Below are positions 1,190 through 15,662 of a DNA stretch of 64,000 bases, in pieces. Source of the stretch: Acidiphilium rubrum (GTDB taxonomy: Bacteria > Pseudomonadota > Alphaproteobacteria > Acetobacterales > Acetobacteraceae). A model generated the notes under the pieces. It searched no databases. It saw only the letters and a program-made list of their open reading frames with translations, and was not told the DNA's origin. The position numbers and the translations under genes are program-made. The stretch covers positions 1 through 64,000 of the forward strand of contig NZ_FTNE01000017.1 in NCBI RefSeq assembly GCF_900156265.1, given 5' to 3'. Each line of letters starts with the position of its first letter. Positions within the stretch are counted from its first letter, which is position 1.

Positions 1190-2716
1190 TCACGGGGTTC
1201 GCAGCGCCGTCGTGAGGGTTTCGACCGCGTCTATGGCCGCAACTACCTCGGCCTCATTGAGCGAGGTCGTGGGGTCGTGCGACAGCGGGTTGAGTATGCG
1301 GGCCTGGTGCGGGGTGATCGCCGCCAGAGCGTCGAGTTTCGGTTGATCTCCGGCGAACTTATTCTCAAGGCCGGTCTTGAGTTGTTCGAACGTGATTTTC
1401 TTCGGATCAGGCTTGTAAGGAAACGCAACCTTCTTGTCCTCGCACTGCTTGCGGAGCAACAACTCGCAGGCGGAGCGCGCGTAATTGGCGGCGGCGGGCA
1501 GATGCTTCTGAGCGATGAAATCGCGGGCCTGCTTGAGCGTGGCTTTAACGATGTCAGACGGAACGGGACGCAGATAGGGCGTGGCCTCGCCCGTCACCGC
1601 GACCATCTCGTACATCTCATGGCAGGTCCAGCGATCGGTTGGGATGGCGGCTCGGATCACTTCGAACCAATGGCGGTCGTGGGTGAGCAACACGATCTGC
1701 CAATCGGCGAAATGCTTATCCAATACGGCCAGGAGCGGCCGGCGATTCGCGTAGTCGAGGCCAACCAGCACATCGTCCAGCACCAACAGCTTGAGCGCCT
1801 GCGAGGGCGCCGAGGGAACGCAGGCAAGACGGCCGGCGAGATAGAAGGCCAGCGCCAAGGCTGAAAGCCGGGCTTCGTTCAGGAAGTGCTGCGGCTGCTG
1901 CGGGTAATATCCTCGAAACTCCAGCTTTGCGTACAGTTCCTTCGCCGCAAAACCGCGATCCTTTTTCAGCCGCGCATTGTTGTAGCGGACGGTTCCGCGC
2001 TCGAAGGCCTCGATCCTCATTTCGTGACGGCCGAGATCGGCAAGTAGGGTGTTGATGATCGGCAGCATGGCGTCGAGCGCTGCTTCCAGGCCGGCGTTGA
2101 ATGCCGCGCAGGCCGCCTCGACCTGGGTCATATAGTCGGTGTTCGAGCTATGGACGTGCGGCCTGGCGCGTTCGGTCTCCGTCCAACGCTCGGCGAGGGT
2201 CTTGCCGGATGTAGCGTCGGCGAAATCGGCGAGCAGGGTTTCGATGGCGAGGTCGAACAGGTTCGGACGGTGCTGACCATGGAAGGCGTTGGTTTCCAGG
2301 AGCGCGTGATAGTCGAGGAAGGAACTGCGCAACGCCGCCAGCGCGACGCGCGGGTCCGCCGTCGGGAGGCCAGGATGCCGCGTCTCCGTCCATTCGAGCG
2401 ACGGCTTGCCATCATTGAAGGTGACGGTAACGCGCGGCGTCAGAAGCGGGTCGAGCGCGTGGACATGGGCATTGCTCTTCAAAGCGTCCCGGCGCGGACG
2501 CCGGGCGAACAGGTCGCGGAGCGCCTTGTATATGGAAGATTTGCCAGCGCCGTTCTCGCCGTAGACGATCAGGTTGCGGCCATTAACCGGAATTTCCATC
2601 GCGACGCTGAACGCGCGATATGCGCGCACCAGCAGGCTTTCGATTCTGAGCGGCAGCGAAGGCGGCGAGTCTAACGCCGTCTCTAAAGTAACCTGTTCCC
2701 CACCCTCATTCGCCAT
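1190..2716 (-). CDS. SMC/RecF-like AAA ATPase of the putative restriction operon
   Basis: This is a 508-residue ABC-type ATPase of the kind found in anti-phage operons. Visible motifs: Walker A YGENGAGKSSI near residue 50, a signature-like LNEARLSALALAFYLA near 277, Walker B KLLVLDDVLVGLD near 312 and an LLTHDRHWF H-loop near 345. There is no long coiled coil, so it is closer to RecF/RloC-like proteins than to true SMC. The last ~100 residues (AANYARSACELLLRKQC onward) look like a helical, HEPN-like domain, but no RxxxxH motif is obvious. I chose ATG 2714-2716 because it lies one base after the TGA that closes the methyltransferase frame (translational coupling); an upstream in-frame extension to 2851 would overlap that gene. 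Confident as an ATPase, uncertain about its role. Confidence 0.8.
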   Translation of the reverse strand: MANEGGEQVTLETALDSPPSLPLRIESLLVRAYRAFSVAMEIPVNGRNLIVYGENGAGKSSIYKALRDLFARRPRRDALKSNAHVHALDPLLTPRVTVTFNDGKPSLEWTETRHPGLPTADPRVALAALRSSFLDYHALLETNAFHGQHRPNLFDLAIETLLADFADATSGKTLAERWTETERARPHVHSSNTDYMTQVEAACAAFNAGLEAALDAMLPIINTLLADLGRHEMRIEAFERGTVRYNNARLKKDRGFAAKELYAKLEFRGYYPQQPQHFLNEARLSALALAFYLAGRLACVPSAPSQALKLLVLDDVLVGLDYANRRPLLAVLDKHFADWQIVLLTHDRHWFEVIRAAIPTDRWTCHEMYEMVAVTGEATPYLRPVPSDIVKATLKQARDFIAQKHLPAAANYARSACELLLRKQCEDKKVAFPYKPDPKKITFEQLKTGLENKFAGDQPKLDALAAITPHQARILNPLSHDPTTSLNEAEVVAAIDAVETLTTALRTP

Positions 2717-2717
2717 T

Positions 2718-3179
2718 TCAAGTTCGACCCTCGATGATCCTAACCGCGTCGATGGATTGCAGGTCGAAGAGGGTGGCGTAGAGGGGGTGGGCGGGGTCGG
2801 CGAGGCAGCGGGACCAGTCTTCGGCGGCGCGGGCGAGCGCAGGGCCTTCAAGGGTGGTGAGGTTCATCAGCCCGGCCTCGCGCGCGGCGGCGAACGGGTG
2901 CAGATTGCGCGCGTGCAGTTCGTCGGCGAAAAACAGCTCGTAGACGAAGGCGTTGATGAGGGCTTCGAGGCGGGGACGGTCGGCCCCGGAGTGTAGCGAC
3001 TTTGCCAAAGTGTTAACCGCAGTCTTTTGCTCGTCCGAAGCATCCGGGACTGGGAATTTTTCTAGGGGAGCTGGTTGAACTTCGTAGAATCCACCCTGCT
3101 TGCTCGCAAAAACCTTTCGGCAAATGTAATTGCTTACAGACGAGTTTAGAACTGCCGAATGATAAAAAGAATTATCGGA
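2718..3179 (-). pseudogene. Detached C-terminal part of the type IIG-like methyltransferase (after in-frame TAA)
   Basis: The codons immediately after the TAA at 3180-3182 stay open in the same frame to TGA 2718-2720. They read SDNSFYHSAVLNSSVSNY, then KVFASKQGGFYEVQPAP, LEKFPVPDASDEQ and a helical tail (LEALINAFVYELFFADELH). LNS, the aromatic-rich QGGFYEVQP and the KFPVP segment are what is expected at the end of Eco57I/TaqI-like target-recognition domains. It is thus the missing end of the upstream gene, not a separate gene. A TTG at 3006-3008 could in theory restart translation but would give only ~96 residues. Confidence 0.85.
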
Positions 3180-6100
3180 TTACAAAAAGTAACTCGTATT
3201 GGCGAGAACGAAGCCCTCAGTGTCGACGGAAAATGTTGGCTCGCTAGATATTTTTGTAGAAATTATCTTAGGTAGGGAAAAGTCATCCCAGTACTTACAG
3301 GACCGAAGCTCCCAATAATATCGACCCTGATCGTCGCGGTCGATGAGCCGCTGCCGCATGATTCCCGCCGTGAACCGTTCAAAGATAGCGGGCCAAGTTT
3401 TCCTGAAGCGCTCCTCCGCCTCGCGGTCAGCCATGCCGGACCACGGATGTTCAACATTAGCCGAGGATTCCAACTTAATTAGCCAATTACCGGATGAATC
3501 CACGTGCCAGCGCTTGACCTCTCGCCCGCCAAGGTACGGAACGATGATGCGATCCGAAGCGGGATGCTTTGCCACAAGCTCCGCTCTTTCCTCGCTATTA
3601 AGCACGAAAGCATCGTTTAGTCCGGTCGTGATTCCCCGTGACACACGCCCATCCACCAAACTCAGGAGAGGGCGACCGACTGCCTGTACTCGTTCCAAAA
3701 GACCGCGTTGCGCCTGTGGTTCAATTTGCCATCCCGAAGAGGCTAGGGCCTGTTGAGGTAAAGCGAACGCCTCGTCAGCGAACCGCTCGGGGAAGCGCTT
3801 GACCGATTCCTTTGGTTCTTCTCCGTCAATCGGTGTCCAATTCAGTGCCTGGATAAGATCATTCGGACCGGGCTGACCCGGCAAAGGCTTGCGAGTGGCG
3901 ACCAGTATGGTCGGGTAAGCAATCGCTTCAAACACGGGTGCATCGTCAAATTCGACGATCTTCAAGATACGAGCGTTGGTGGTGAGCCACTCCCGAAGGC
4001 CCTTGCCGTAAGGCAGCCGATACCATTTATTCGAAGTGACGAAGGCCAGCGCGCCCGCTGGCTTCAGGAGCCGCAGCGCGCGCTCGTAGAAATAGATATA
4101 GATGTCGGCCGTGCCGGCGAAGGTCTTATAGTCCGTTTTGAGTTGCGCCTTGGCGATCACCGGCTTGTCGTTGACGCGGAAGCTTTCGATCTTTTCCTGC
4201 CGGATATAGGGCGGATTGGCGAAGGCGATGTCGAACCAGCCTTCATCGGCCGAGGCGTCGAGCCCAAACATCCATTCGCCATCGAAGAAGGGCGCGAAAG
4301 CGTTGGGATCGAACGGGTCCCACGCTGCAAGCTTCCTGGCGTCATCTCCGGCGAAGGCATGGTCGTGCATAACCTCGTCGGCGATTTCCGCGCGCAGCAG
4401 CTTGATCCTGCGCTGCTCCCGCCGTTTTGCGGCGCTATTCGCGGCGGCAAAGAAGGCGCGATTTGCTTCGCGCAGCGCCCGCTGCTTCCTGAGCAAGTCC
4501 TTGCTGACCAGCCCCGCCTGGCCACGACGGTGCAGCGGCGTCAGCGTATTGGCGGCGACAAATTTTGCTTCGAGGTTCGGCAATGGTGTGATTCCGCGAT
4601 TGGGACGGCCCGGATTTTCCTTCTGCTCGACCGCCAGGCTGATGAAGCAGCGTAGCTTGGCGATTTGTACAGCGATCGGTTGAATATCCACGCCGTGCAG
4701 GCAACGGTCGATCAGGAACAGCTTACGGGTATAGTCGGGATAGTGGCCGCTTTCGAACTTGGCGTCGAATTCACCGAGCGCTTCCTGGGCCTTCTCGATC
4801 TCAGCGGCGCGCTCAGTGGCGGCGGGAATGGCATCGGCCTCGGCGAGCCGGCGTTCGTAATAGAGTCGGTTGCGCGCCTTCCACTTTTCCCCGCCGGGAT
4901 CCAGCACGTCGAGCATGTGAACCAGTTTCTGCAACAGGCCGAGCGGGAAGGCGCCTGATCCTACGGCGGGGTCAATCGCTTTGCAGCTCTCGATGGCGGC
5001 GATCAGGGCATCCACCTGGGCAGGGCTGAAATCGTGCGAACGGCTGGCGAAGCTGAGCAGGGCACGGAGGCGGGTTTCGTCTCCGCCATCGGACTCCAAT
5101 CCCAATTCGCTCGGCAGTTTCGGCAGCAGCCAGGCGACCAGCGCCTCATCGACCATGAAATCGACGACCTCGCGCGGCGTGTAAAAGCTGCCTGACTTGT
5201 TGCGAGCGGTGGTCTTGGTGTCCTCGTTGTAGGAAGCGAGCAGGTTCTCGAACACCTTGCCCAGCAGTTCGGGATCAAGCGCGGCCTCTTCCTCCAGAGG
5301 CGTGTTTTCTTCGACCGTGAATTTATAGCGCTCGAACAGGTCGATCAGGCCGGGTACGTCGCGCGGCGACTTGGCCTTCTCGAACCAGCCGGACAGATCG
5401 ACACCCTTCGCGCCCCCGAAGAACAGGGCGTTGGGTAGCCGCGGCTGCTTGTCTGACTGATCGGAAAAACCGTCGATGCGCAAGATCAGCCGTTGCCGCT
5501 CCCGCTCGGCATCGCCCGCGCGTGGATCGTCGCTGGCGACCTCGGTATCCAGGCATTCGAACAAGCCACCGTTGAGAAATGGCACGTTGGCAAAGGCTTC
5601 CAACGCCTTGTCCGGTTCGGTGAACTGGGCGGCGTGACGATAAACATGGTGGCCGAGGTAATCCTTCGATTGCCCGGCATCGTCTTGCCGCCAACGCCGT
5701 TCGGGCATTTCGGTGTTGAGGGTGGCAAAGAACAGGTTCTGGAGGATGGAAAGATAATAGCCGTGACCGCTGGGCGTCGCAGACGGCGGCTCCTTCAGCA
5801 GCTTCGCCAGCGAAGGTCCATCGAACAGCGCCTCGGGGACGAGGCCCTTTTCCTTGATGAACCAGACGAACATTAGCCGCGTGAGCAGGCGTATCAGTGC
5901 GATTTCTTTCGCGCCCGCGCCATTGCCTTGTCCCTTGGAGAAGGCGAGCGGCGCGCTGGTGCTGGCCCAGGCGAACCAGTCGGCCAGTTCCTCATAGAAG
6001 CGCTTGTTGAGTTCGGCGGCCGACAGCGTCTCCAGCCACAGATCATAGAGCGCTCGGAAATCCGATGGAGCCTTGCGCCCGGCGAGTGCGGCGAGAGACA

Positions 6101-6671
6101 GGTCTGCCAGGATTTCCACATGGGCGCGGTGGGGCCTGGCAAGGTTGATGTCCTTGATCAGGCTGATCCGCCCGCCGACCACGTCGCGCGAGGCGTCGCG
6201 CCGGTTGGCGCGGCGGTCAATCACCGTCAGCGTCGCTTGCCCGTCATGGCGGAACAACACGATCGCGGGCATGGCGAACCCGCGATTGAGGGCACGCACA
6301 ATCGCCACTAGTTGCCGGCGCGACCAACCGCCGTCGTCGAGGTCGATCGCGAGGAAAACGAAAGAATCGATCGCGCCCCGCTGGAAAGCCTCGCCGGTCG
6401 CCGGATCGCCGCCGCGCGACAGGGCGGGCAGTTCGTCGCCTGTGAGCTGGAACAGGAAATGTACCGCACGCCAGCGGCCCGTCTCGAAACGCGCCGCATC
6501 CATGCCCAGTGCAGCAAGAAACTGGGCGGGCGTGGCGGGAGCGTCCAGCGTCTTGGGGCTGCGATAGCCCATGACATCGAGCAGCGTCCGACCCGCGCCC
6601 GCGAGGTTCTCGCCGGCAAGCCCCGAAACCGCGTCGCGGATCGCAGCTAGACGTTCTGCGGCGTGGCTCAT
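3180..6671 (-). CDS. Eco57I-like type IIG restriction-modification methyltransferase, truncated by in-frame TAA
   Basis: This 1163-residue protein belongs to the Eco57I/PglX class: a single large polypeptide that methylates adenine and, in type IIG enzymes, may also cleave DNA. The methyltransferase core shows GSFYTPREVVDFMV near residue 494, the SAM-binding DPAVGSGAF near 565 and the catalytic NPPY (FANPPYIRQEKIES) near 818. A target-recognition region follows (LVDGRVSRGITTGLNDAFVL, IIVPYLGGREVKRW). The frame stops at TAA 3180-3182 right after ANTSYFL, while the same frame continues for another 153 codons to 2718, so the intact gene would encode about 1316 residues. The start ATG 6669-6671 overlaps the helicase stop (ATGA). 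The segment from about 3010 to 3560 is clearly richer in A/T than the rest, suggesting exchange of the recognition domain. No PD-(D/E)xK nuclease was identified with confidence. Confidence 0.88.
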   Translation of the reverse strand: MSHAAERLAAIRDAVSGLAGENLAGAGRTLLDVMGYRSPKTLDAPATPAQFLAALGMDAARFETGRWRAVHFLFQLTGDELPALSRGGDPATGEAFQRGAIDSFVFLAIDLDDGGWSRRQLVAIVRALNRGFAMPAIVLFRHDGQATLTVIDRRANRRDASRDVVGGRISLIKDINLARPHRAHVEILADLSLAALAGRKAPSDFRALYDLWLETLSAAELNKRFYEELADWFAWASTSAPLAFSKGQGNGAGAKEIALIRLLTRLMFVWFIKEKGLVPEALFDGPSLAKLLKEPPSATPSGHGYYLSILQNLFFATLNTEMPERRWRQDDAGQSKDYLGHHVYRHAAQFTEPDKALEAFANVPFLNGGLFECLDTEVASDDPRAGDAERERQRLILRIDGFSDQSDKQPRLPNALFFGGAKGVDLSGWFEKAKSPRDVPGLIDLFERYKFTVEENTPLEEEAALDPELLGKVFENLLASYNEDTKTTARNKSGSFYTPREVVDFMVDEALVAWLLPKLPSELGLESDGGDETRLRALLSFASRSHDFSPAQVDALIAAIESCKAIDPAVGSGAFPLGLLQKLVHMLDVLDPGGEKWKARNRLYYERRLAEADAIPAATERAAEIEKAQEALGEFDAKFESGHYPDYTRKLFLIDRCLHGVDIQPIAVQIAKLRCFISLAVEQKENPGRPNRGITPLPNLEAKFVAANTLTPLHRRGQAGLVSKDLLRKQRALREANRAFFAAANSAAKRREQRRIKLLRAEIADEVMHDHAFAGDDARKLAAWDPFDPNAFAPFFDGEWMFGLDASADEGWFDIAFANPPYIRQEKIESFRVNDKPVIAKAQLKTDYKTFAGTADIYIYFYERALRLLKPAGALAFVTSNKWYRLPYGKGLREWLTTNARILKIVEFDDAPVFEAIAYPTILVATRKPLPGQPGPNDLIQALNWTPIDGEEPKESVKRFPERFADEAFALPQQALASSGWQIEPQAQRGLLERVQAVGRPLLSLVDGRVSRGITTGLNDAFVLNSEERAELVAKHPASDRIIVPYLGGREVKRWHVDSSGNWLIKLESSANVEHPWSGMADREAEERFRKTWPAIFERFTAGIMRQRLIDRDDQGRYYWELRSCKYWDDFSLPKIISTKISSEPTFSVDTEGFVLANTSYFL

Positions 6672-9600
6672 GCCGCCGCCGTCGCCGGCCTGACGATGAG
6701 CCAGGTAATGAGGTCGTAGTCCAGGCTGGCGCGCGCCTGTGCTATCCCGTCGGGCACCCGTGCGCCGCGCGAGCCCGTCAACGCCGCCAATGTGCGGGTC
6801 GCGGAGGTCTCGCCGATGGAGGCCACTGCCGCGCGGATCAACCCGTCATACCGCTCCATCTTCTCGCCGTGGACCGTCTCGTCGTCAAAGTCATTGCACA
6901 GCACCTCGAATGGCTCATCATGCCCAAGGCAGAGCACGCGATAGGCTTCCAGGATCGGCTTAGGTTGACCGAAGCCGAGGCGCACTGAACCGTCATCCTT
7001 CACATAGACGAGATAATATGGATCGAGCGGGTTGATCTTCGCCTGCTCCGTGCTCGGCTCGGGCGGGCGGCGCCTCAGACAGAAAATCACGCCGGGATCG
7101 AGGAGGGCGCCGTCGACATCATTTGGGACAATCGCGTGCAGCCCCAGCGGCGCGTCGCGCAACGCCTGCTCGTTCGTGCGCGCAAAGCCGAGCAGGTCCG
7201 CTCGGAAGTCGTCGAGCGCGAAATCGGCGAGCGTCACACCTCCCCCCGCTTCTTCTAGGTCGAACAGTTCGTCCTTCAGACGGAGCAGTTGCTCGTCGCG
7301 CCAGCGCGCGTCGCCATCGGCCTCGGCCCGCGCATTGAGTAGATCGTCGTCGCCCGTGGCCGAGAGATCGACCAGCGCCATGCGGGCCTCCACTCGATCC
7401 TTGAGGCGCAAATATCTATTCAGGTCTTCGGTCGGCCAGAAATTGACCATACGGATTGTGGCGTTGCGGCTGCCGATCCGGTCGATCCGCCCGAAGCGCT
7501 GGATAAGGCGCACGGGGTTCCAGTGAATGTCCACATTCACCAACAAGTCGGCATCCTGGAGATTCTGGCCTTCCGAGATGCAGTCGGTGGCGATCAGCAG
7601 GTCGATTTCGCCGCCGGTCTCGGCGCCGCGCATCAAGGCACGGCGTTTGGCGCGCGGCGCGAAATTGACCAGCACGTCCTGAAAGCGCGCCGGGCCAAAA
7701 GTCGCCTTGCAGCCGTCGCCCGTCACCAGTGCCGCTTGCAGCCCGCATTCGCGCGCAAGGGGACGCAACTCTTCGTAGAGATAGCGGGCCGTGTCGGTGA
7801 AGGCTGTGAACAGGATGATCTTGCGGTTGGCCTCGCCATCTCGGTTGGTCGTGGGCTTATCCGCCTTGGCGCGGATGATCTCCTTAAGCCGCGCCAGCTT
7901 GGCGTCCCGATCGGGCGTAACCTTGCGCGCTTCGGAGGCCAGCGCGGCGATCCGGTCGCGATCGCGCGTCAACGCCGCCTTCCACGCCGCCCTATCGATG
8001 TGGGCGAGGTTGTATTTCAGCGCGCCGCCGACCTCGAAGGCTTCTTCCAATTCGTCATCCAACTCGATCTCATCTGGCGGCGGCGTGTCGATGGCCGCCG
8101 TCGCTTCGAAGCTGTCGAGATCGCCAAGCCGCTGGTCGATGCGAGCGATCATACGATCCATCGTCAGGCGGAAAGAGCTAACCGAGCTTTCCAGGCGCTT
8201 GAGGAAGCCGATCTTCATCATAGCGATGAGGTATTTTTCGCGATTGGCCTGGTCGAAATTCCCTCCCTTATCATAGTGGGCGCGATACTCGGGAAGCACG
8301 AAGGTCAACGGGCCGTAGAGTGCCAGCTCTAGCTTGCCGATTGCGGCATCTACGTCCTCGAAAGCCGGAAAGCCGCCCTGGCTGTCGATGTTGGCGAATA
8401 TGGATTCGGGTGCGGCCCGTTTCGGAAACCCGCCGATCTTTTCCATCGAAGCGGCGTAATGGCGTTCGACGTGTTTGCGCGAACGCGCGATGGTGACGCC
8501 GTCGAGCAGGCCGAACAGCGCAGGCGGCAACTTGTTCAGCAACTCGCCGGCATCACGGCTGCCGCTTTTCGCCCAGTCGGCAAAGCGTCGTCGTGCCCCG
8601 CCGATCAGTGTGCCCAGGTTGGGCACGCCCAGGTCGATGAATCCATCTCCCCTGTCGGCAGAAATCAGGTCGAGTTGCGCTTTGAGGTCGCTTAGATCGT
8701 TGTTCACCGGCGTAGCCGAGAGCAGCAGAACCTTGGTCGGCAGGCCGGCCTTGATGACCTCGTCCATTAGCCGCTCGTAGCGGCTGCGGCGCCCGCCAGC
8801 GGTCTTGTTGCGCGATGCGCTTCGGAAATTATGGGACTCGTCGATAACGACGAGATCGTAGTTGCCCCATTCTATCCGCGCGAGGTCAATGTCGCCGACC
8901 TTGCCCTTCTCACGCGAAAGATCGGTATGAGACAGGACGGTATAGCCGAACCTGTCTTCGCGCAGCGGGTTCATCTCGCTGTTGTTGGTGGCGAGGTAGT
9001 CGGTCCAGTTCTCGCGCAGCTTCTTTGGACACAGCACGAGCACGTTCTTGTTGCGCTTCTCGAACCACTTGATGACCGCCAGAGCGGTGAAGGTTTTGCC
9101 CAAACCGACGCTGTCAGCGAGGATGCAGCCGCCATGTTTTCCGATCTTGCCAAGCACAGCGCGGAGGCCGTCACGCTGGAAATCGAACAAAGCGCGCCAG
9201 ATCGCAGTCTGCTCGAACGCGGTCTGTTGGATCAGCGCATCCTCCGCCGCCTGGTCGGTCAGGAAGTCGCCGAACAGGTGAAGCAGCGTCTTGAAATAGA
9301 CGAACTCGGGAGCGGCGTGGGCATAGCTAGCTTGGAGCGCGCGCAGCACTTCGTCGCGCACGTCTTCGGTCAGGCTGGTGTCGCTCCATAGCTCGTCGAA
9401 CCAGGCCAGAAGGTCCTCCCGGTCGCGATCACTATCGACAATCAGATTGAGTTCGATGTTCGGCGAATCACCCAGTCCGAGCCCGTTGATCGTGAAGTTC
9501 GAACTGCCGAGCACGGCGTGTGGGCGGCGTCCGTCGTCGATATGGATCAGCTTTCCGTGCAACAGGCCGGAGCGCTTGACCGACCGTATTTCGACGCGAT

Positions 9601-9919
9601 CCTTGATCCATTGGGCGCAGCGCCACGCGGCAGAGCGCTGCCGTATTTGCTCGGTGAGGCGCAGTCCAGACTCATCGAACGAGAAGGCTGGCGGCACGAG
9701 GCCAGCGTTGTCCGTATCCTTCAGGAACCGCGGCTCGCCGAAGAGGAAGCGCATGTGGGCGACGCCGTCCAATGTCTTGCGGAGACCATCGTAAGCGAAG
9801 GTCGTGAAATAGGCCGAGACAACGGACAGCCGGCTGTCGGGAACCGCGCGCTCAGTGATGAACTCGTGGACCGCTCCCCTGCTACGATTATCCTTGATGC
9901 CCGATCGTCCCGTTCTCAC
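6668..9919 (-). CDS. PLD-nuclease / SNF2-type helicase fusion
   Basis: This 1083-residue protein has an N-terminal phospholipase-D-type nuclease domain (LLHGKLIHIDD near residue 120 plus GSSNFT near 138, the HxK...GS.N motif). A superfamily-2 helicase/translocase follows: Walker A LADSVGLGKTFTAL near 265, DESHNF near 360, LLLSATPVNNDLSDL near 397, then the second RecA lobe (IILFTAFTDTARYL near 700, ATDCISEGQNLQ and QRFGRIDRIGS near 790-820). Such proteins move along DNA and probably nick or cleave it in phage-restriction systems. I start at GTG 9917-9919: it overlaps the stop of the upstream small gene (GTGA) and has GAGGAG five bases upstream; GTG 9925 sits too close to that site. Motifs appear intact. 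Confidence 0.88.
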   Translation of the reverse strand: MRTGRSGIKDNRSRGAVHEFITERAVPDSRLSVVSAYFTTFAYDGLRKTLDGVAHMRFLFGEPRFLKDTDNAGLVPPAFSFDESGLRLTEQIRQRSAAWRCAQWIKDRVEIRSVKRSGLLHGKLIHIDDGRRPHAVLGSSNFTINGLGLGDSPNIELNLIVDSDRDREDLLAWFDELWSDTSLTEDVRDEVLRALQASYAHAAPEFVYFKTLLHLFGDFLTDQAAEDALIQQTAFEQTAIWRALFDFQRDGLRAVLGKIGKHGGCILADSVGLGKTFTALAVIKWFEKRNKNVLVLCPKKLRENWTDYLATNNSEMNPLREDRFGYTVLSHTDLSREKGKVGDIDLARIEWGNYDLVVIDESHNFRSASRNKTAGGRRSRYERLMDEVIKAGLPTKVLLLSATPVNNDLSDLKAQLDLISADRGDGFIDLGVPNLGTLIGGARRRFADWAKSGSRDAGELLNKLPPALFGLLDGVTIARSRKHVERHYAASMEKIGGFPKRAAPESIFANIDSQGGFPAFEDVDAAIGKLELALYGPLTFVLPEYRAHYDKGGNFDQANREKYLIAMMKIGFLKRLESSVSSFRLTMDRMIARIDQRLGDLDSFEATAAIDTPPPDEIELDDELEEAFEVGGALKYNLAHIDRAAWKAALTRDRDRIAALASEARKVTPDRDAKLARLKEIIRAKADKPTTNRDGEANRKIILFTAFTDTARYLYEELRPLARECGLQAALVTGDGCKATFGPARFQDVLVNFAPRAKRRALMRGAETGGEIDLLIATDCISEGQNLQDADLLVNVDIHWNPVRLIQRFGRIDRIGSRNATIRMVNFWPTEDLNRYLRLKDRVEARMALVDLSATGDDDLLNARAEADGDARWRDEQLLRLKDELFDLEEAGGGVTLADFALDDFRADLLGFARTNEQALRDAPLGLHAIVPNDVDGALLDPGVIFCLRRRPPEPSTEQAKINPLDPYYLVYVKDDGSVRLGFGQPKPILEAYRVLCLGHDEPFEVLCNDFDDETVHGEKMERYDGLIRAAVASIGETSATRTLAALTGSRGARVPDGIAQARASLDYDLITWLIVRPATAAA

Positions 9920-10080
9920 GCCCACTCCTCATTCAATGTCGCCTGATACCAGTGGCGACGACCGTTCAGAACCCAATCTATCTTGACGTGGGTTATCGCT
10001 TCATCGGCCGCTTTTCGACGCCTGCGTGGTCCCCGTTTCCCCCTTTTCCGTGCGTCCGGATTGCACGGAAAGTCGCTCAT
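9916..10080 (-). CDS. Small basic protein between antitoxin and helicase
   Basis: This 54-residue frame begins MSDFPCNPDARKRGKRG, is strongly basic in its first half, and ends ITHVKIDWVLNGRRHWYQ then ATLNEEWA. It overlaps the end of the Phd-like gene by 80 bases in another frame and its TGA overlaps the helicase GTG start. That coupling and the non-random C-terminal half are the evidence that it is real. I do not recognise a family. It could be a DNA-binding accessory factor or merely the leader frame that carries the helicase ribosome-binding site. Confidence 0.45.
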   Translation of the reverse strand: MSDFPCNPDARKRGKRGPRRRRKAADEAITHVKIDWVLNGRRHWYQATLNEEWA

Positions 10081-10207
10081 ATTCTTCCACTGCGACCACC
10101 ACCACCACGCCGCGCCCATGCTTTTCGATCAGCACAGGGCCTGCACGCGCGGTGTCGATCATCAGCCCGAAAGCGTTCTTCGCCTCGCGCGCCGACATGG
10201 TTTTCAT
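10001..10207 (-). CDS. Phd/YefM-family antitoxin or operon regulator
   Basis: This 68-residue protein has the Phd/YefM N-terminal fold: MKTMSAREAKNAFGLMIDTA, then GPVLIEKHGRGVVVVVAVEEYERL. These proteins bind their own promoter as dimers and usually neutralise a toxin through a flexible C-terminal tail. ATG 10205-10207 has AGGA eight bases upstream. No Fic/Doc or RelE-type toxin follows; the next genes are the small basic protein and the helicase. It is therefore either an orphan antitoxin or an autoregulator heading the restriction operon. The C-terminal 20 residues are polar and low in similarity to anything I know. Confidence 0.8.
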   Translation of the reverse strand: MKTMSAREAKNAFGLMIDTARAGPVLIEKHGRGVVVVVAVEEYERLSVQSGRTEKGETGTTQASKSGR

Positions 10208-10623: not shown

Positions 10624-12735
10624 ATGGCGACCGACGAAGACCATTTCCGCATCCGTCCCGGCCGGGTCCGCGACCGTGCTGGCAGGCGCACCACGCGAGC
10701 CGTCCGGCCGCGCCCGAAGACCTTCCTGGCCGAGGTGCATCAGGCCATCCGCCGCGCTGGCGGCGACCCCAATCGGCTGGGCTCGGCCGGGAAGGGAAGC
10801 GGGCGGTTCAACGCGCGAGGCCGGGGCGCTATGGCTGCCGTCGGGCTGAGGGGCCGGAGCGCCTGGAGCCGAGACGCCAGCGGCGGGCGGACCCGCGCCC
10901 GGCGCGTGACGGTGAAGGCGCGGATCGTGAAGCTCAACCCGCAGCGCGGCGCGGCGCGCGGACGGTCATTCGTCAGCGCGAAGGCGGTGGACGCCCACCT
11001 GCGCTATTTGGAGCGCGATGGTGTCAACCGCGACGGCGAGAAGGGACAGGTCTATTCGGCCGAGCGCGACGCCGAGGACGGCAGCACCTTCCTCGACCGG
11101 GGCCGCGACGACCGCCACCAGTTTCGCTTCATCGTCTCCGCCGAGGAAGGCGTAGAGTTGGCCGACCTGCGGGAGACCACCCGCGACCTGATGAAGACGA
11201 TGGAGGCTGACCTCGGCACTAGGCTCGACTGGATCGCGGTCGATCACCACAACACCGGCCACCCGCACACCCACATCCTGCTGCGCGGCGTTACCGACGA
11301 CGGGAAGATACTCAACATCGCCGGCGACTACATCGCCCACGGCATCCGCGAGCGGGCGAGCGAAATCGTCACGCTGGAGCTGGGCCGGCAGACCGAGCAG
11401 GAGGTCAGCCGCCAGCTTGAGCGCGAGGTGGACGCCGAGCGCTTCACCCGCCTGGACCGCATGCTGATCGCCGAACAGGAGGCGAGCCACGGGTTCGCCG
11501 ATCTGCGCCCCGACCAAGACATGCTGGAGACCGCGCGGCGGAATCGGGCGCTGCTGATCGCCCGCGCCCGCAGGCTGGAGAGCATGGGGCTGGCGACCGA
11601 GGTGGAGGTTGGCCGCTGGTCCATCTCCGCACAGGCTGAGCCGACCTTGCGCGAACTGGGCGAGCGCGGCGACATCATCAAGACCATGCACCGTGCGCTG
11701 GCCGACCACGGCCTCTCTGACGAACGCGCCCCAGCGCAATATGCCACCCACGGCAAGCAGATCACCGAACCGATCGTGGGCCGCGTGCTCGCCAAGGGCT
11801 TTGCCGGGGACGAGATGGGCGACCGGTTGCACCTCGTCATCGATGGCGTGGACGGGCGCACCCACTATGTCGAGATGGCGGACGCCGGCCGCCTGGATGA
11901 GATCCGGCGCGGCCACATCGTCGCGCTCGATCCGGCGCCGACCAAGGCCGAGCCCCGGCCGGCGGATGTCAACATCCAGATCATGGCGGAGACCAATGGC
12001 GGCATCTACCAGCCGAGCCTGCATCTGGAAGCGACGCGGGACATCATCGAGCAGCGCCACGGCGACCCCGACGCCTTCATTCGATCCCATGTACGCCGCC
12101 TGGAAGCCTTGCGCCGCGCCGGGCATGTCGAGCGCATCGACGCCGACCACTGGAAAATCCCCGGCGACATCGCCGAGCGGGGCATTGCCTATGACGCCCC
12201 CGGCCGGCCCAAGGATTTCGGCATCCGCACGCTGTCCACACTCGACCTCGACCGGCAGGTTGGCAGCGACGGCGCGACCTGGCTCGACCGTGAGCTGGTT
12301 GCGAAAGACCACCTGCCCCTTGCCGGGACCGGCTTCGGCCAGGAGGTGAACGCGGCACTCGACCGGCGCGCCGCGCGTCTCGTCGAAATGGGCCACGCCA
12401 GCGTGAAGGACGGCTTCATTTCCATCCCCCGGCGCACGATCGCGGCGCTGGAGCGCCAGGAGATCGATCGCGTCGGCAAAGAGATCGCCGCCGAGCGGGG
12501 GCTGACCTACGCCCCGTCTGGGCCCGGCGAATATGTCTCCGGCCGGCTGGCGGGCGTCGCGAATCTCGCCAGCGGTAGCTTCGCCATGATCGAGGACGGA
12601 CTCGGCTTCCAACTCGTGCCCTGGCAACCCGTGCTGGAGAAGCGCCTCGACCAACATATCAGCGGCGTCCGTCGCGACGATGGCGCCATCGAATGGAGTT
12701 TTAGCCGCAAGCGGCAGATCGGACTGGGGCTTTGA
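10624..12735 (+). CDS. VirD2/RlxS-like relaxase with DUF3363 C-terminus
   Basis: This 703-residue conjugative relaxase would nick oriT and stay covalently bound to the DNA for transfer. After a basic N-terminal segment (RRTTRAVRPRPKTF) come a motif-I-like tyrosine region AHLRYLERDGVNRDG near residue 123-137 and the metal-binding histidine motif HHNTGHPHTHILLRG near 208-222. The rest matches the DUF3363 architecture of relaxases common on integrative elements of sphingomonads and other alphaproteobacteria. It appears full length. No type IV secretion genes are in view, so the element may be mobilisable rather than self-transmissible. Confidence 0.88.
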   Translation: MATDEDHFRIRPGRVRDRAGRRTTRAVRPRPKTFLAEVHQAIRRAGGDPNRLGSAGKGSGRFNARGRGAMAAVGLRGRSAWSRDASGGRTRARRVTVKARIVKLNPQRGAARGRSFVSAKAVDAHLRYLERDGVNRDGEKGQVYSAERDAEDGSTFLDRGRDDRHQFRFIVSAEEGVELADLRETTRDLMKTMEADLGTRLDWIAVDHHNTGHPHTHILLRGVTDDGKILNIAGDYIAHGIRERASEIVTLELGRQTEQEVSRQLEREVDAERFTRLDRMLIAEQEASHGFADLRPDQDMLETARRNRALLIARARRLESMGLATEVEVGRWSISAQAEPTLRELGERGDIIKTMHRALADHGLSDERAPAQYATHGKQITEPIVGRVLAKGFAGDEMGDRLHLVIDGVDGRTHYVEMADAGRLDEIRRGHIVALDPAPTKAEPRPADVNIQIMAETNGGIYQPSLHLEATRDIIEQRHGDPDAFIRSHVRRLEALRRAGHVERIDADHWKIPGDIAERGIAYDAPGRPKDFGIRTLSTLDLDRQVGSDGATWLDRELVAKDHLPLAGTGFGQEVNAALDRRAARLVEMGHASVKDGFISIPRRTIAALERQEIDRVGKEIAAERGLTYAPSGPGEYVSGRLAGVANLASGSFAMIEDGLGFQLVPWQPVLEKRLDQHISGVRRDDGAIEWSFSRKRQIGLGL

Positions 12736-12749
12736 TCCGCCTTGAACGA

Positions 12750-12768
12750 TACGGCATTATGCCGTATA
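12750..12768. promoter_or_regulatory. Palindromic operator candidate before the TacAT-like pair
   Basis: ATACGGCATTATGCCGTAT is a perfect 19-base inverted repeat (nine bases each side of one central base), about 25 bases before the antitoxin start. Ribbon-helix-helix antitoxins bind such palindromes, so it is probably the autoregulatory operator. Confidence 0.6.
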
Positions 12769-12791
12769 TGATGGAGTCGAAGGAGGCCCCC

Positions 12792-13082
12792 ATGCCCAAG
12801 CCCCAAATCGAAGCCGAGACCGCCCGATTGGAAGCGCGCATCCCGGTCCTGGTCTACGACCAGATGCAGCGCGCTGCCCGTCTGCGCGGCATGACCCTGA
12901 CCGGCTATCTCATCGCCACGGCCGGCGAGGACGCGCGCCGCGTTGTCGAGGACGCCGACATCATGCGCCTCGCGCGCGAGGACCAAATCCGCTTCGCCGA
13001 GGCGCTGATCAATCCGCCCCAGCCGAACGCGCGGCTGGCTCGTGCGGCAAAGCGCCATGCTGAGCTGATCGAGCGCCGGTGA
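12792..13082 (+). CDS. TacA-like (DUF1778) antitoxin
   Basis: This 96-residue protein starts at ATG 12792, preceded by the strong ribosome-binding site AAGGAGG (12,780s); upstream in-frame starts lack one and overlap the relaxase end. The N-terminal part (TARLEARIPVLVYDQMQRAA) is a ribbon-helix-helix DNA-binding region, as in DUF1778/TacA antitoxins. Its stop overlaps the start of the GNAT toxin (GTGA). The pair is expected to autorepress its promoter between 12,736 and 12,780, where a palindrome ATACGGCATTATGCCGTAT (about 12,750-12,768) is a good operator candidate. Confidence 0.85.
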   Translation: MPKPQIEAETARLEARIPVLVYDQMQRAARLRGMTLTGYLIATAGEDARRVVEDADIMRLAREDQIRFAEALINPPQPNARLARAAKRHAELIERR

Positions 13083-13585
13083 GCGTCCGCTTCGCCATAG
13101 AACCGCTGGCGAAGGCGCACAAGCGGGATGATTTTTTCTCCGGCAACGACCGGATCGACAGCTATTTTCGTGAGACCGTCTCCCAGGACGTGAAGCGTAA
13201 TTACGCCACCTGTTTCGTCGCCAGGGAGATCGCGACGGACCGGGTGGCGGGCTTCTACACGCTGTCTTCCAGCAACGTGCCGTTGACCGAGGTTCCCGAG
13301 CCGCTGGCAACGAGGCTGCCGCGCTACCCGACCGTCCCGGCGGTGCTGATCGGCTGGCTTGGCCGCCATAGCGACTATGCTGGACAAGGGCTGGGAGAAG
13401 CCCTGCTGTTTGACGCCATCAAGACCGTGGCGAACGCGCCGATCGGCGCCCACGCCATCTTCGCCGACGCGATCGACGACCAGGCGGCGGCCTTCTACGT
13501 GGCATTCGGCTTCGCGCCCTTGGTGCAACGGCCGCGCACCCTCTATCTGCCTGTGGCGACGGCGTTGAACCTGATATCGCCATGA
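13079..13585 (+). CDS. TacT-like GNAT acetyltransferase toxin
   Basis: This 168-residue GNAT protein starts at GTG 13079, overlapping the antitoxin stop. It shows IEPLAKAHKRDDFFSGNDRI at the start, as in TacT/AtaT-type toxins, the acetyl-CoA loop SDYAGQGLGEALLFDAI near residue 98, and the usual end FYVAFGFAPL. TacT toxins acetylate the amino acid of charged tRNAs and block translation until neutralised by the antitoxin. The pair probably stabilises the mobile island. Confidence 0.88.
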   Translation: MSVRFAIEPLAKAHKRDDFFSGNDRIDSYFRETVSQDVKRNYATCFVAREIATDRVAGFYTLSSSNVPLTEVPEPLATRLPRYPTVPAVLIGWLGRHSDYAGQGLGEALLFDAIKTVANAPIGAHAIFADAIDDQAAAFYVAFGFAPLVQRPRTLYLPVATALNLISP

Positions 13586-13718
13586 CAACCGCCTTCGCCC
13601 CTACGCCGTTTCAGCCCCGCGCCGCCGCGCGCAGGTCTTTTTGCGCCATGGCGCGCGGAGGCTTCCAGTGTAGAAAAAGGCTATTCTTTGAAGGGCCTCG
13701 TTCGGCGATTCTGGCGCA

Positions 13719-13943
13719 ATGGCAAGACTTCGCAAAGAATGCACCCCAACCGCATCGGAGCAACTTAAAGCGTTGCTCGGTCAACCCTGGCCGTTTCCGG
13801 GCCGGCCGCCGAAGCATGACCTCTCCACCTGGACTGTCACCGACGACTGGCCCGAGCATATCCCGGTCACGGAAGCCGAGGTGGACGTGTTTGAGGCGTG
13901 GTTCGGCGACCTCTTCGATAAGTTGTCCGGGTCGTGCCGATGA
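13719..13943 (+). CDS. Small protein preceding the recombinase
   Basis: The 74-residue frame begins MARLRKECTPTASEQLKALL and contains GQPWPFPGRPPKHDLSTW and HIPVTEAEVDVFEAWFGDLF. Codon use resembles the neighbours and the sequence looks protein-like, with a Pro-rich centre and an acidic amphipathic end. It lies 22 bases before the serine recombinase, so it may be cotranscribed and assist integration or excision, but no known excisionase signature is visible. The ribosome-binding site is weak. Confidence 0.55.
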   Translation: MARLRKECTPTASEQLKALLGQPWPFPGRPPKHDLSTWTVTDDWPEHIPVTEAEVDVFEAWFGDLFDKLSGSCR

Positions 13944-13964
13944 TGTGACAGGGAGACATACGCC

Positions 13965-15662
13965 ATGACCGTGCCGCTACGGGCCGCCCTCTATCTGCGC
14001 GTCTCGACGGCGCGGCAGGCCGAGCATGATGTGTCGATCCCCGATCAGAAGCGTCAGGGTGAAGCCTATTGCGCTTCACGCGGCTACCAGCTCGTCGAAA
14101 CCTATGTGGAGCCGGGCGCATCGGCCACCAATGATCGGCGCCCCGAGTTTCAGCGCATGATCGAGGCGGGCACGTCGAAGCCCGCGCCGTTCGACGTGGT
14201 GATCGTCCATTCGTTCAGCCGGTTCTTTCGCGATCACTTCGAGCTGGAGTTCTATGTCCGGAAGCTCGCGAAGAATGGGGTGAAGCTCGTCTCCATTACC
14301 CAGGAGATGGGCGACGATCCGATGCACGTCATGATGCGGCAGATCATGGCGCTGTTCGACGAATATCAGTCCAAGGAAAACGCCAAGCACGTCATGCGGG
14401 CCTTGAAGGAAAACGCCCGGCAGGGTTTTTGGAACGGTTCGCTGCCGCCCATCGGCTACCGTGTCGTCGCGGCCGGGCAACGCGGCGCGAAGGTCAAGAA
14501 GAAGCTGGAGATCGATCCGCTCCACGCCGAAACGGTACGCCTGATCTACCGGCTTGCGCTCCACGGCGACGGCGCCAAAGGCCAGATGGGCGTGAAGAAC
14601 ATCGTCAGCCACTTGAACCGCAATCGCATTTTCACCCGCGACGGCGGCCGTTGGGGTATCGGCCAAGTCCACCGCATCCTGACCCGCCGCACCTACATGG
14701 GCGAGCATGAGTTCAACAAGCGGTCCAAGTCCAAGGAGTTGAAGCCGGTCAGCGAGATCGTCGTCGTGCCGGTGCCGCCGATCATCGACCGCGAGACCTT
14801 CGACGCGGTGCAGGCGCTGCTCAAAGCCCGACACCCCACGGTGACGCCATCCGCCGTCATCAGCGGTCCAACGATGCTCACGGGCTTGATCTACTGCGCC
14901 AAGTGCGGCGGAGCCATGACCATCCGCACCGGCAAGGGCGGGCGGTATCGTTACTACGCCTGTTCAATGAAAGCCCGGCAGGGGCCGACCGCCTGCGAAG
15001 GCATGGCGGTGCCGATGGACAAGCTGGACGATCTTGTCGCCAGCCATCTCGAAGACCGTCTCCTCCAGCCCGAAAGGCTGGAAACGATCCTCGCCACCGT
15101 GCTCGACCGGAGACAGGAGCGATCCGAGCGCCAGCATGAGCACATTGGCGAACTGAACCGGCGTGCGGCGGAATCCGAAGCGCGCCTCAAACGCCTCTAC
15201 GACGCCATCGAGGCGGGCGTCGCCGACTTGAACGACCCGGCGCTCAAGGACCGCATCGACGGCCTGAAGGCCATCCGCGATCAGTCGAAGGCCGATGCCG
15301 AGCGCGCCCAGGCCATGCTTGAGAACTCCGGCAGCAAGGCCGTTACCCCGCAGATGGTGCGCAACTTCGCCGAAATCGCACGGCGGCGTATCCGCCTTGA
15401 AGGGGGTGGCTATCGCCGCGACCATCTTCGCGCGCTCGCACAGCGCGTGGAGGTCGCCGATGGCGAGGTCCGGATCATGGGATCAAAGTCGCGGCTGCTA
15501 CAGGTGCTGACCGGAAAAAATAGCGCAAATTCAGTGCCCACTCAGGGACTGAAATGGCGGAGGGAGTGGGATTCGAACCCACGGTACGCTTTCACGCACA
15601 CACGCTTTCCAAGCGTGCGCCTTAAACCGCTCGGCCATCCCTCCCGCGTGGGCGGTTCATAG
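13965..15662 (+). CDS. Large serine recombinase (integrase) with C-terminus reading through tRNA-Ser
   Basis: This 565-residue site-specific recombinase carries the resolvase catalytic domain (YLRVSTARQAEHDVSIPDQ, catalytic Ser near residue 13), a recombinase DNA-binding domain (GFWNGSLPPIGYR near 152; RILTRRTYMGEH), a zinc ribbon (YCAKCGGAM ... ACSMKARQGPTACEG, about 310-345) and a coiled coil (about 365-450). It would integrate and excise the island. The last ~30 residues (from EWDSNPRY on) are encoded by the complementary strand of the tRNA-Ser gene and the frame closes 18 bases beyond it, so this tail reflects the attachment site rather than the original integrase. ATG 13965 has GGGAG about eight bases upstream. 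Confidence 0.92.
   Translation: MTVPLRAALYLRVSTARQAEHDVSIPDQKRQGEAYCASRGYQLVETYVEPGASATNDRRPEFQRMIEAGTSKPAPFDVVIVHSFSRFFRDHFELEFYVRKLAKNGVKLVSITQEMGDDPMHVMMRQIMALFDEYQSKENAKHVMRALKENARQGFWNGSLPPIGYRVVAAGQRGAKVKKKLEIDPLHAETVRLIYRLALHGDGAKGQMGVKNIVSHLNRNRIFTRDGGRWGIGQVHRILTRRTYMGEHEFNKRSKSKELKPVSEIVVVPVPPIIDRETFDAVQALLKARHPTVTPSAVISGPTMLTGLIYCAKCGGAMTIRTGKGGRYRYYACSMKARQGPTACEGMAVPMDKLDDLVASHLEDRLLQPERLETILATVLDRRQERSERQHEHIGELNRRAAESEARLKRLYDAIEAGVADLNDPALKDRIDGLKAIRDQSKADAERAQAMLENSGSKAVTPQMVRNFAEIARRRIRLEGGGYRRDHLRALAQRVEVADGEVRIMGSKSRLLQVLTGKNSANSVPTQGLKWRREWDSNPRYAFTHTRFPSVRLKPLGHPSRVGGS
15555..15644 (-). tRNA. tRNA-Ser (anticodon GGA)
   Basis: On the minus strand a 90-nt serine tRNA can be folded: acceptor GGAGGGA/TCCCTCC, anticodon stem CACGC/GCGTG with loop TTGGAAA (anticodon GGA), a long serine-type variable arm, T-arm GTGGGTTCGAATCCCAC and an encoded 3' CCA. 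It reads UCC/UCU codons. Its 3' end faces the mobile island, the usual orientation for integration into a tRNA 3' end. Confidence 0.95.

Follow-up and report, generated by a model that had tools for sequence, protein, structure and literature searches.

A three-gene operon of Acidiphilium rubrum with features of a mobile, ATP-dependent restriction-modification-like defence system

Three genes in a conserved order

The stretch of DNA analysed here, hereafter the window, comprises 64,000 nucleotides of Acidiphilium rubrum (NZ_FTNE01000017.1, assembly GCF_900156265.1, positions 1 to 64,000 of the forward strand) and carries a genuine operon of three genes, coding for a nuclease–helicase fusion, an adenine methyltransferase and an ABC ATPase. 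We consider this operon, with a probability of roughly 0.6, to be a mobile, ATP-dependent defence system resembling restriction-modification, its putative anti-phage role being read from the sequence. The genes follow one another on the minus strand:

6668..9925, minus strand: HKD/PLD nuclease–SNF2-type helicase fusion, 1085 residues from GTG 9925, start possibly GTG 9919; identified by Pfam and PADLOC
2718..6671, minus strand: Eco57I/TaqI-like adenine-N6 methyltransferase, 1317 codons with one in-frame stop at codon 1164
1190..2716, minus strand: RecF/Rad50/SMC-type ABC ATPase with a C-terminal helical domain, 508 residues; identified by Pfam and a predicted model

The set of a PLD-SNF2 protein, an Eco57I-type methyltransferase and a small ABC ATPase, as named in the original prediction, was recovered by the Pfam scan, which assigned PLDc_2, SNF2-rel_dom and Helicase_C to the helicase, Eco57I to the methyltransferase and SMC_N/AAA_21 to the ATPase. 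That prediction had counted five overlapping genes, two of which (6671-3180 and 3008-2718) lie in the same frame on both sides of an in-frame TAA (3182-3180) and are thus two pieces of one 1317-codon methyltransferase, while a further one, a 67-residue open reading frame (ORF) at 10119-9916, matches no Pfam family at E 0.001 and is only partly conserved in one related locus (L048). The continuity of the methyltransferase frame and the weakness of this upstream ORF rule out the five-gene operon. With regard to the junctions, both the ATGA overlap at 6671-6668 between helicase and methyltransferase and the one-base gap at 2717 between methyltransferase and ATPase are present; the GTGA at 9919-9916 exists as well, its GTG being the third codon of the longest ORF for the helicase, but the upstream ORF that ends there is poorly supported.

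The helicase was used as query in one pattern-based scan of a genome collection of 84,980 species, which yielded 26 loci. Among these and a further locus from a genome of the same class (L045), 14 loci of the close clade have sufficient downstream sequence; L055 and L058 end too early and were left out of the gene-order count. In all 14, which belong to many genera, the methyltransferase and the ATPase follow the helicase in the same direction, and the helicase and methyltransferase genes share the ATGA overlap, so that the arrangement is far beyond chance. The possibility, raised with the original prediction, that the genes do not co-occur elsewhere has therefore been answered in the negative. 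Methyltransferase and ATPase genes are adjacent in 13 of these loci, and in that of Rhodopila (L057) about 900 base pairs (bp) of extra, coding-looking sequence lie between them (14159-15072).

Beyond the close clade, helicase and methyltransferase are found together in loci of cyanobacteria, Chloroflexota, one deltaproteobacterial genome and one Pseudomonadales genome. A search of viral contigs with the single helicase protein returned no relatives, and one with an alignment of methyltransferase N-termini gave five matches (L085-L089). Two of these, L085 and L089, are environmental contigs with the complete set of three genes, and the helicase tree places them apart from the close clade; L087, whose start is cut, holds the methyltransferase and the ATPase, and L088 shows a weak N-terminal match only.

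An interrupted methyltransferase with exchangeable parts

The catalytic core of the methyltransferase is preserved, the motifs DPAVGSGAF and NPPY being intact. Eco57I (Pfam) and IIG (PADLOC) are its best models, and its family profile matches the structures of CamA, BseCI and TaqI. A Foldseek search with its predicted model lists BrxX and the type ISP enzyme LlaGI, which counts as weak support since the model is poor (predicted local distance difference test, pLDDT, 62). Three features of this gene matter for what follows:

3180..3182, minus strand: in-frame TAA ending the methyltransferase 153 residues early
3042..4034, minus strand: target recognition domain (TRD) region, behaving as an exchange cassette of about residues 880-1210, located by the drop in identity with L057
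5922..6671, minus strand: DUF4391-like N-terminal domain (residues 1-250 searched; Pfam match at residues 119-221)

All 13 close-clade methyltransferases of full extent are uninterrupted, with 1308-1348 codons from the first matched residue. A second damaged copy occurs in L045 (8202-13725), in which the ATPase is divided into two ORFs and a frameshift falls between residues 277 and 279 of the methyltransferase. As the methyltransferase of the window, the presumed shared recognition subunit, is deprived of its last 153 residues, the system is probably inactive in this genome.

Other alterations were noticed among the relatives. In Scytolyngbya (L062, 6081-12256), the methyltransferase gene is split by an insert of about 6 kilobases (kb) holding several ORFs. 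In L063 (3835-8493), the methyltransferase ORF reaches 1553 residues owing to an in-frame insertion of about 200 residues, which we take to resemble a REP-associated transposase. A 294-residue ORF in L036 (9937-10821) joins the helicase N-terminus (84% identity, residues 6-68) to the C-terminal half of the ATPase (48%) and is a deletion scar of a former operon.

Comparison with Rhodopila L057 places the variation of the methyltransferase in its recognition domain: identity amounts to 93-100% over residues 1-770, 64% over 771-880, 27-33% over about 881-1210 and 77% beyond, against 94-100% for the helicase and, for the ATPase, 75% in the first 100 residues and 95-100% in the remainder. The reverse pattern is seen in L050, whose methyltransferase is 80-94% identical to that of the window throughout and its ATPase only 30-45%, while L051 combines an ATPase of 78-93% identity with a different recognition domain. 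Recognition domain and ATPase have thus been exchanged independently on a conserved frame. The G+C content of the recognition domain is 0.54 (3183-4031), versus 0.62-0.63.

Two contexts of the helicase family and the DUF4391 domain

The helicase is not novel as a family, since PADLOC already holds it as model C3a139, 'HKD+Snf2', which matches residues 105-1039 of the window protein with E 1.3e-104 (model positions 95-921 of 948); no source for the label C3a139 was found in the open-access literature. The window protein carries HGKLIHID...GSSNFT near residues 123-145, and its Walker A (DSVGLGKT) and DESH motifs are intact. All 28 helicases counted in the window's clade retain the HxK of the PLD domain; this count leaves aside L073 (N-terminus missing), the weaker helicases of sampled genomes (L003-L020 and L028-L030) and L085-L089. 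Conservation is weaker at the D of HxKx4D, which several distant members and L068 lack, while GSSN[FL]T is kept. In 25 cases, namely, the window and 24 loci, the HxK helicase adjoins an Eco57I-type methyltransferase.

A second context emerged from plasmids, of which 499 records match the helicase; in 100 of them the match spans 80% or more of its length, identity reaching about 40% in the best. In all 14 of the plasmid loci that were fetched, a DUF4391 protein follows the helicase, as it does in L027 (the same gene as L003); in L084, it is annotated as hypothetical and the domain was found by Pfam. In these 15 type III/DUF4391-associated helicases, the HxK is absent at the corresponding place throughout, L081 having an unrelated HxK elsewhere. 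Downstream, an annotated DNA methyltransferase is present in 13 of the 14 plasmid loci, the record of L078 ending before that point, and the single one scanned is of type III. An annotated DEAD/DEAH gene follows in 11 of the 15 lost-HxK loci, and the three scanned are type III Res proteins with an endonuclease domain. In L027, unannotated ORFs of 706 and 1012 residues occupy the methyltransferase and DEAD/DEAH positions; for L024, L025 and L078, the annotation, incomplete by design, shows no DEAD/DEAH gene.

In two of these loci, one or two inserted genes precede the annotated methyltransferase: an ATP-dependent endonuclease, a DUF2130 protein and a hypothetical protein lie between it and the DUF4391 gene in L077 (12940-16232) and L075 (13295-14032). 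It is possible that this interval serves as a cargo slot in the type III version.

The DUF4391 domain links both contexts. PF14335 (DUF4391) matches 14 of 16 methyltransferases of the Eco57I-type family at E up to 1, the best at 1.1e-6, and an hhalign comparison of the methyltransferase N-termini with eight stand-alone DUF4391 proteins gave a probability of 95.3 and E 2.1e-8. When the whole methyltransferase was used for profile comparison, DUF4391 aligned at the same N-terminal place, and the control, a comparison of the DUF4391 profile with the ATPase, gave no match. Hence the stand-alone partner of the type III loci corresponds to a fused domain of the methyltransferase here. A type IIG restriction enzyme would carry an active nuclease domain in its methyltransferase polypeptide. 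The first 250 residues of 16 methyltransferases contain no invariant D, E or K, with E80 nearly invariant, so that this region has no obvious nuclease as judged from the alignment.

Taken across the two helicase groups, the association between the HxK motif and the partner is suggestive as a sequence correlation. We tentatively propose, at a little less than even odds, that DUF4391 is an adaptor plugging one SNF2 motor into unrelated methyltransferases. Standing alone, it would turn a nuclease-dead PLD-SNF2 protein into the helper motor of a type III system; fused to an Eco57I-type methyltransferase, it would make the live-PLD helicase the restriction enzyme, with the RecF-type ATPase gained or lost several times.

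Proposed function, alternatives and relatives

In the mechanism that we favour, the methyltransferase would read an asymmetric DNA site via its exchangeable recognition domain and methylate adenine on host DNA. At an unmethylated site, it would engage the SNF2 helicase through its DUF4391-like N-terminal domain, and the engaged helicase would translocate and cut DNA with its HKD (PLD) nuclease. Recognition led by BrxX, or a type ISP enzyme, would follow the same logic, here divided between two polypeptides. The RecF/Rad50-type ATPase may be an accessory, probably clamping DNA or gating the helicase, the ATPase-less lineages keeping the two-gene core. Without the recognition subunit that they share, marking and cutting would both fail, and an intact helicase could be tolerated beside a truncated methyltransferase provided that it depends on the same subunit for locating its target.

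Several observations weigh against these proposals. The combination of an intact helicase and a truncated methyltransferase could reflect a mutation that arose very recently, or an error in sequencing. Three of the 28 HxK helicases were not seen with a methyltransferase (L002 and L058, both cut off, and L064); in L064, a different ORF adjoins the helicase (3969-5241), presumably resembling an AlbA-domain ATP-binding protein, and no methyltransferase match lies within its 5.2 kb. Intact-HxK and lost-HxK helicases are the two sides of one tree branch with support 100/100, and the correlation between motif and partner therefore represents one event, not 43. The window member matches PF14335 with E 0.0019 and 18.6 bits, versus a curated cut-off of 29.9. 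The ATPase, moreover, is undetected in several helicase–methyltransferase lineages, which weakens any fixed role for it. By tblastn to E 10, no ATPase was found in the six distant loci whose sequence continues for 1 kb or more past the methyltransferase (L061, L063, L067, L070, L071 and L072), with one chance-level match in L067 and the proviso that a very divergent ATPase could escape; nor was it detected in the environmental contig L086, which has the helicase and the methyltransferase. On the helicase tree, built without L058, L070 and L073 and with cut loci grouped among the ATPase-less ones, the presence of the ATPase requires four changes. This patchy distribution shows two genes to be the core and the ATPase to be added to them, with several gains or losses.

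In sampled genomes, the ATPase was found at E 1e-8 in 5 of 385 and in 5 of 398, the own genome included each time, and the only close relatives besides the latter are in G478, where the operon is frameshifted in methyltransferase and ATPase, and G221, which has a fusion scar with the helicase N-terminus. Phage records gave no match to it, and plasmid records three, one of them from Nostoc (L021). In that plasmid (10988-13434), a 338-residue TaqI-like recognition-domain protein precedes a 31% identical ATPase, and no helicase match occurs in the locus.

One might regard this ATPase as the effector arm of the operon, sensing infection or failed restriction in the manner of the Septu/retron PtuA and causing abortive infection via its C-terminal helical domain, beside a helicase and methyltransferase forming an ordinary restriction pair. 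With the predicted ATPase model (pLDDT 78), Foldseek lists retron/Septu-type ATPases (9n69, 9kjx and 9nnh) over most of its length with E about 2e-9 to 3e-10, PADLOC gives weak matches to mad3, LmuB, GajA and PtuA, and two residues of the C-terminal domain, N476 and H480, do not vary in either of two alignments (14 of 14 and 16 of 16 sequences). Rad50/SMC heads nevertheless outrank these proteins in Foldseek, and among the 50 matches listed by VIA-align, cohesin SMC, RecF and Rad50 heads fill the list, with Z 20.7-23.8 over about residues 22-394. Reading the C-terminus as a HEPN RNase was rejected: the Rx4-6H motif is not conserved, the Rx6H of the window (RILNPLSH) having a counterpart, with the R in place, in only 4 of 14 members. 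We thus hold an effector role of the ATPase to be improbable.

An equally improbable alternative concerns the setting of the operon, which would act mainly as an addiction or exclusion module stabilising a mobile island, not as host phage defence. The mobilisable island postulated in the original prediction is indeed apparent from the relaxase, the serine recombinase and the genes shared with Rhodopila L057:

10001..10273, minus strand: Phd/YefM antitoxin-like ORF with an internal ATG at 10207 (PF02604, E 6.5e-12)
10624..12735, plus strand: relaxase (MobA/VirD2-like and DUF3363), 95% identical in L057
13965..15662, plus strand: large serine recombinase ORF, overrunning tRNA-Ser (15555-15644)

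The Phd/YefM-like ORF ends about 80 bp before the helicase and is the better-supported upstream gene; in L048, L057 and L059, a homologue immediately precedes the operon. A pair of TacA-type antitoxin and GNAT protein also adjoins the operon, together with the relaxase and the serine recombinase. In Rhodopila globiformis (L057, 1265-6905), relaxase, TacA/GNAT pair and serine recombinase (window 10624-15662) are 91-95% identical and the Phd-like ORF is identical, so that the same element is shared at 91-100% identity, and the island adjoins a tRNA-Ser of another anticodon (cga versus gga). The window begins at the contig start, and the other end of the island lies outside it. A stabilising function draws on this neighbourhood, yet among the loci of the helicase scan, with flanks of at most 10 kb, this relaxase was seen only in L048 (as a fragment) and L057, and addiction is in any case compatible with a defence role.

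Membership of the DUF499-centred, BREX-related (Hma) Type-2 systems is very unlikely. These combine, in the accessible part of PMC12839542, a Swi2/Snf2 helicase bearing an HKD nuclease at its N-terminus with an N6-adenine methyltransferase and an ATPase under a restriction-like logic, that is, the same three-part list, and DUF499 operons with PLD-SNF2 are already in print, as far as the accessible text goes. The window operon shares the HKD–Swi2/Snf2 fusion (PLDc_2, SNF2-rel_dom and Helicase_C, HxK present), and the PADLOC HmaA model matches the helicase part with E 3.5e-29. However, the defining component, the DUF499 AAA+ protein, is replaced by a RecF/Rad50-type ATPase, and the methyltransferase is Eco57I/TaqI-like with a DUF4391-like N-terminus, its best matches being the Eco57I and IIG models. 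A search for DUF499 (PF04465) gave no match in the own genome and matches in 1 of 14 control genomes; its absence from operon and genome rules this membership out as a classification. A mere juxtaposition of a IIG-like restriction enzyme with an ATPase and a helicase unrelated to it has a negligible probability, since their order is kept in the 14 close loci and in the environmental L085 and L089, with the overlap retained in the former, even though the parts occur separately (the helicase in type III loci and distant ATPases elsewhere).

The restriction-modification-like reading is best appreciated next to other known systems. In type ISP enzymes, nuclease, helicase, methyltransferase and TRD are found in one polypeptide with an N-terminal Mrr-type nuclease. 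As in LlaGI and LlaBIII, an SF2 motor, an adenine methyltransferase and a recognition domain would work together in the window system, but they are distributed over two proteins (separate ORFs), with an HKD nuclease and an extra ATPase. For the type ISP enzymes, the accessible part of PMC7049714 describes activation of the ATPase by methyltransferase/TRD target recognition, and ATP-dependent translocation before cleavage. With BREX, in which BrxX site binding is required for defence according to the accessible part of PMC11842806, the operon shares a methyltransferase (BrxX/PglX) as the recognition subunit, in line with the Foldseek and profile matches. It differs in other BREX components: as the original prediction had stated, PglZ is absent, PF08665 having no match in the own genome and matches in 2 of the 14 control genomes, and a Pfam scan limited to the operon proteins gave no BrxC-like match, nor one to DrmA or DrmB.

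The PbeABCD systems with a CxC ABC-ATPase, comprising an HKD and SF2 helicase, an ABC ATPase and often a methylase of C5 or N4 cytosine type in the accessible part of PMC10853773, resemble the operon in their three parts. Membership is ruled out by the absence of the hook, CxC or CxxC occurring in none of 14 members of the ATPase family; further, the methylase here is not of the C5/N4 cytosine type and the PADLOC PbeA match is weak (1.5e-11). For a DndE-like gene (PF08870), the own genome gave no match, and the control genomes gave none either. The C3a139 helicases of the type III loci are related over their full length and share the DUF4391 partner, but there the HxK is lost, DUF4391 stands alone, the methyltransferase is type III-like and a Res-like gene mostly follows. 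No description of the present gene combination was found in the open-access literature, while a subscription paper could hold one. The novelty claimed for the operon can thus be retained for its arrangement, but not beyond it: with related three-part systems (Hma and PbeABCD) in print, the operon is a variant arrangement of known defence parts and not a new kind of system.

The PADLOC-listed helicase family is here tied to two restriction contexts through DUF4391. If the tentative adaptor proposal is true, a single HxK motif would reveal, inside one protein family, the change from helper to effector or back; DUF4391 is then predicted to bind the helicase, and the PLD site to matter only where the type III Res is absent. 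The independent exchange of recognition domain and ATPase may, in turn, help the prediction of specificity and the annotation of defence islands.

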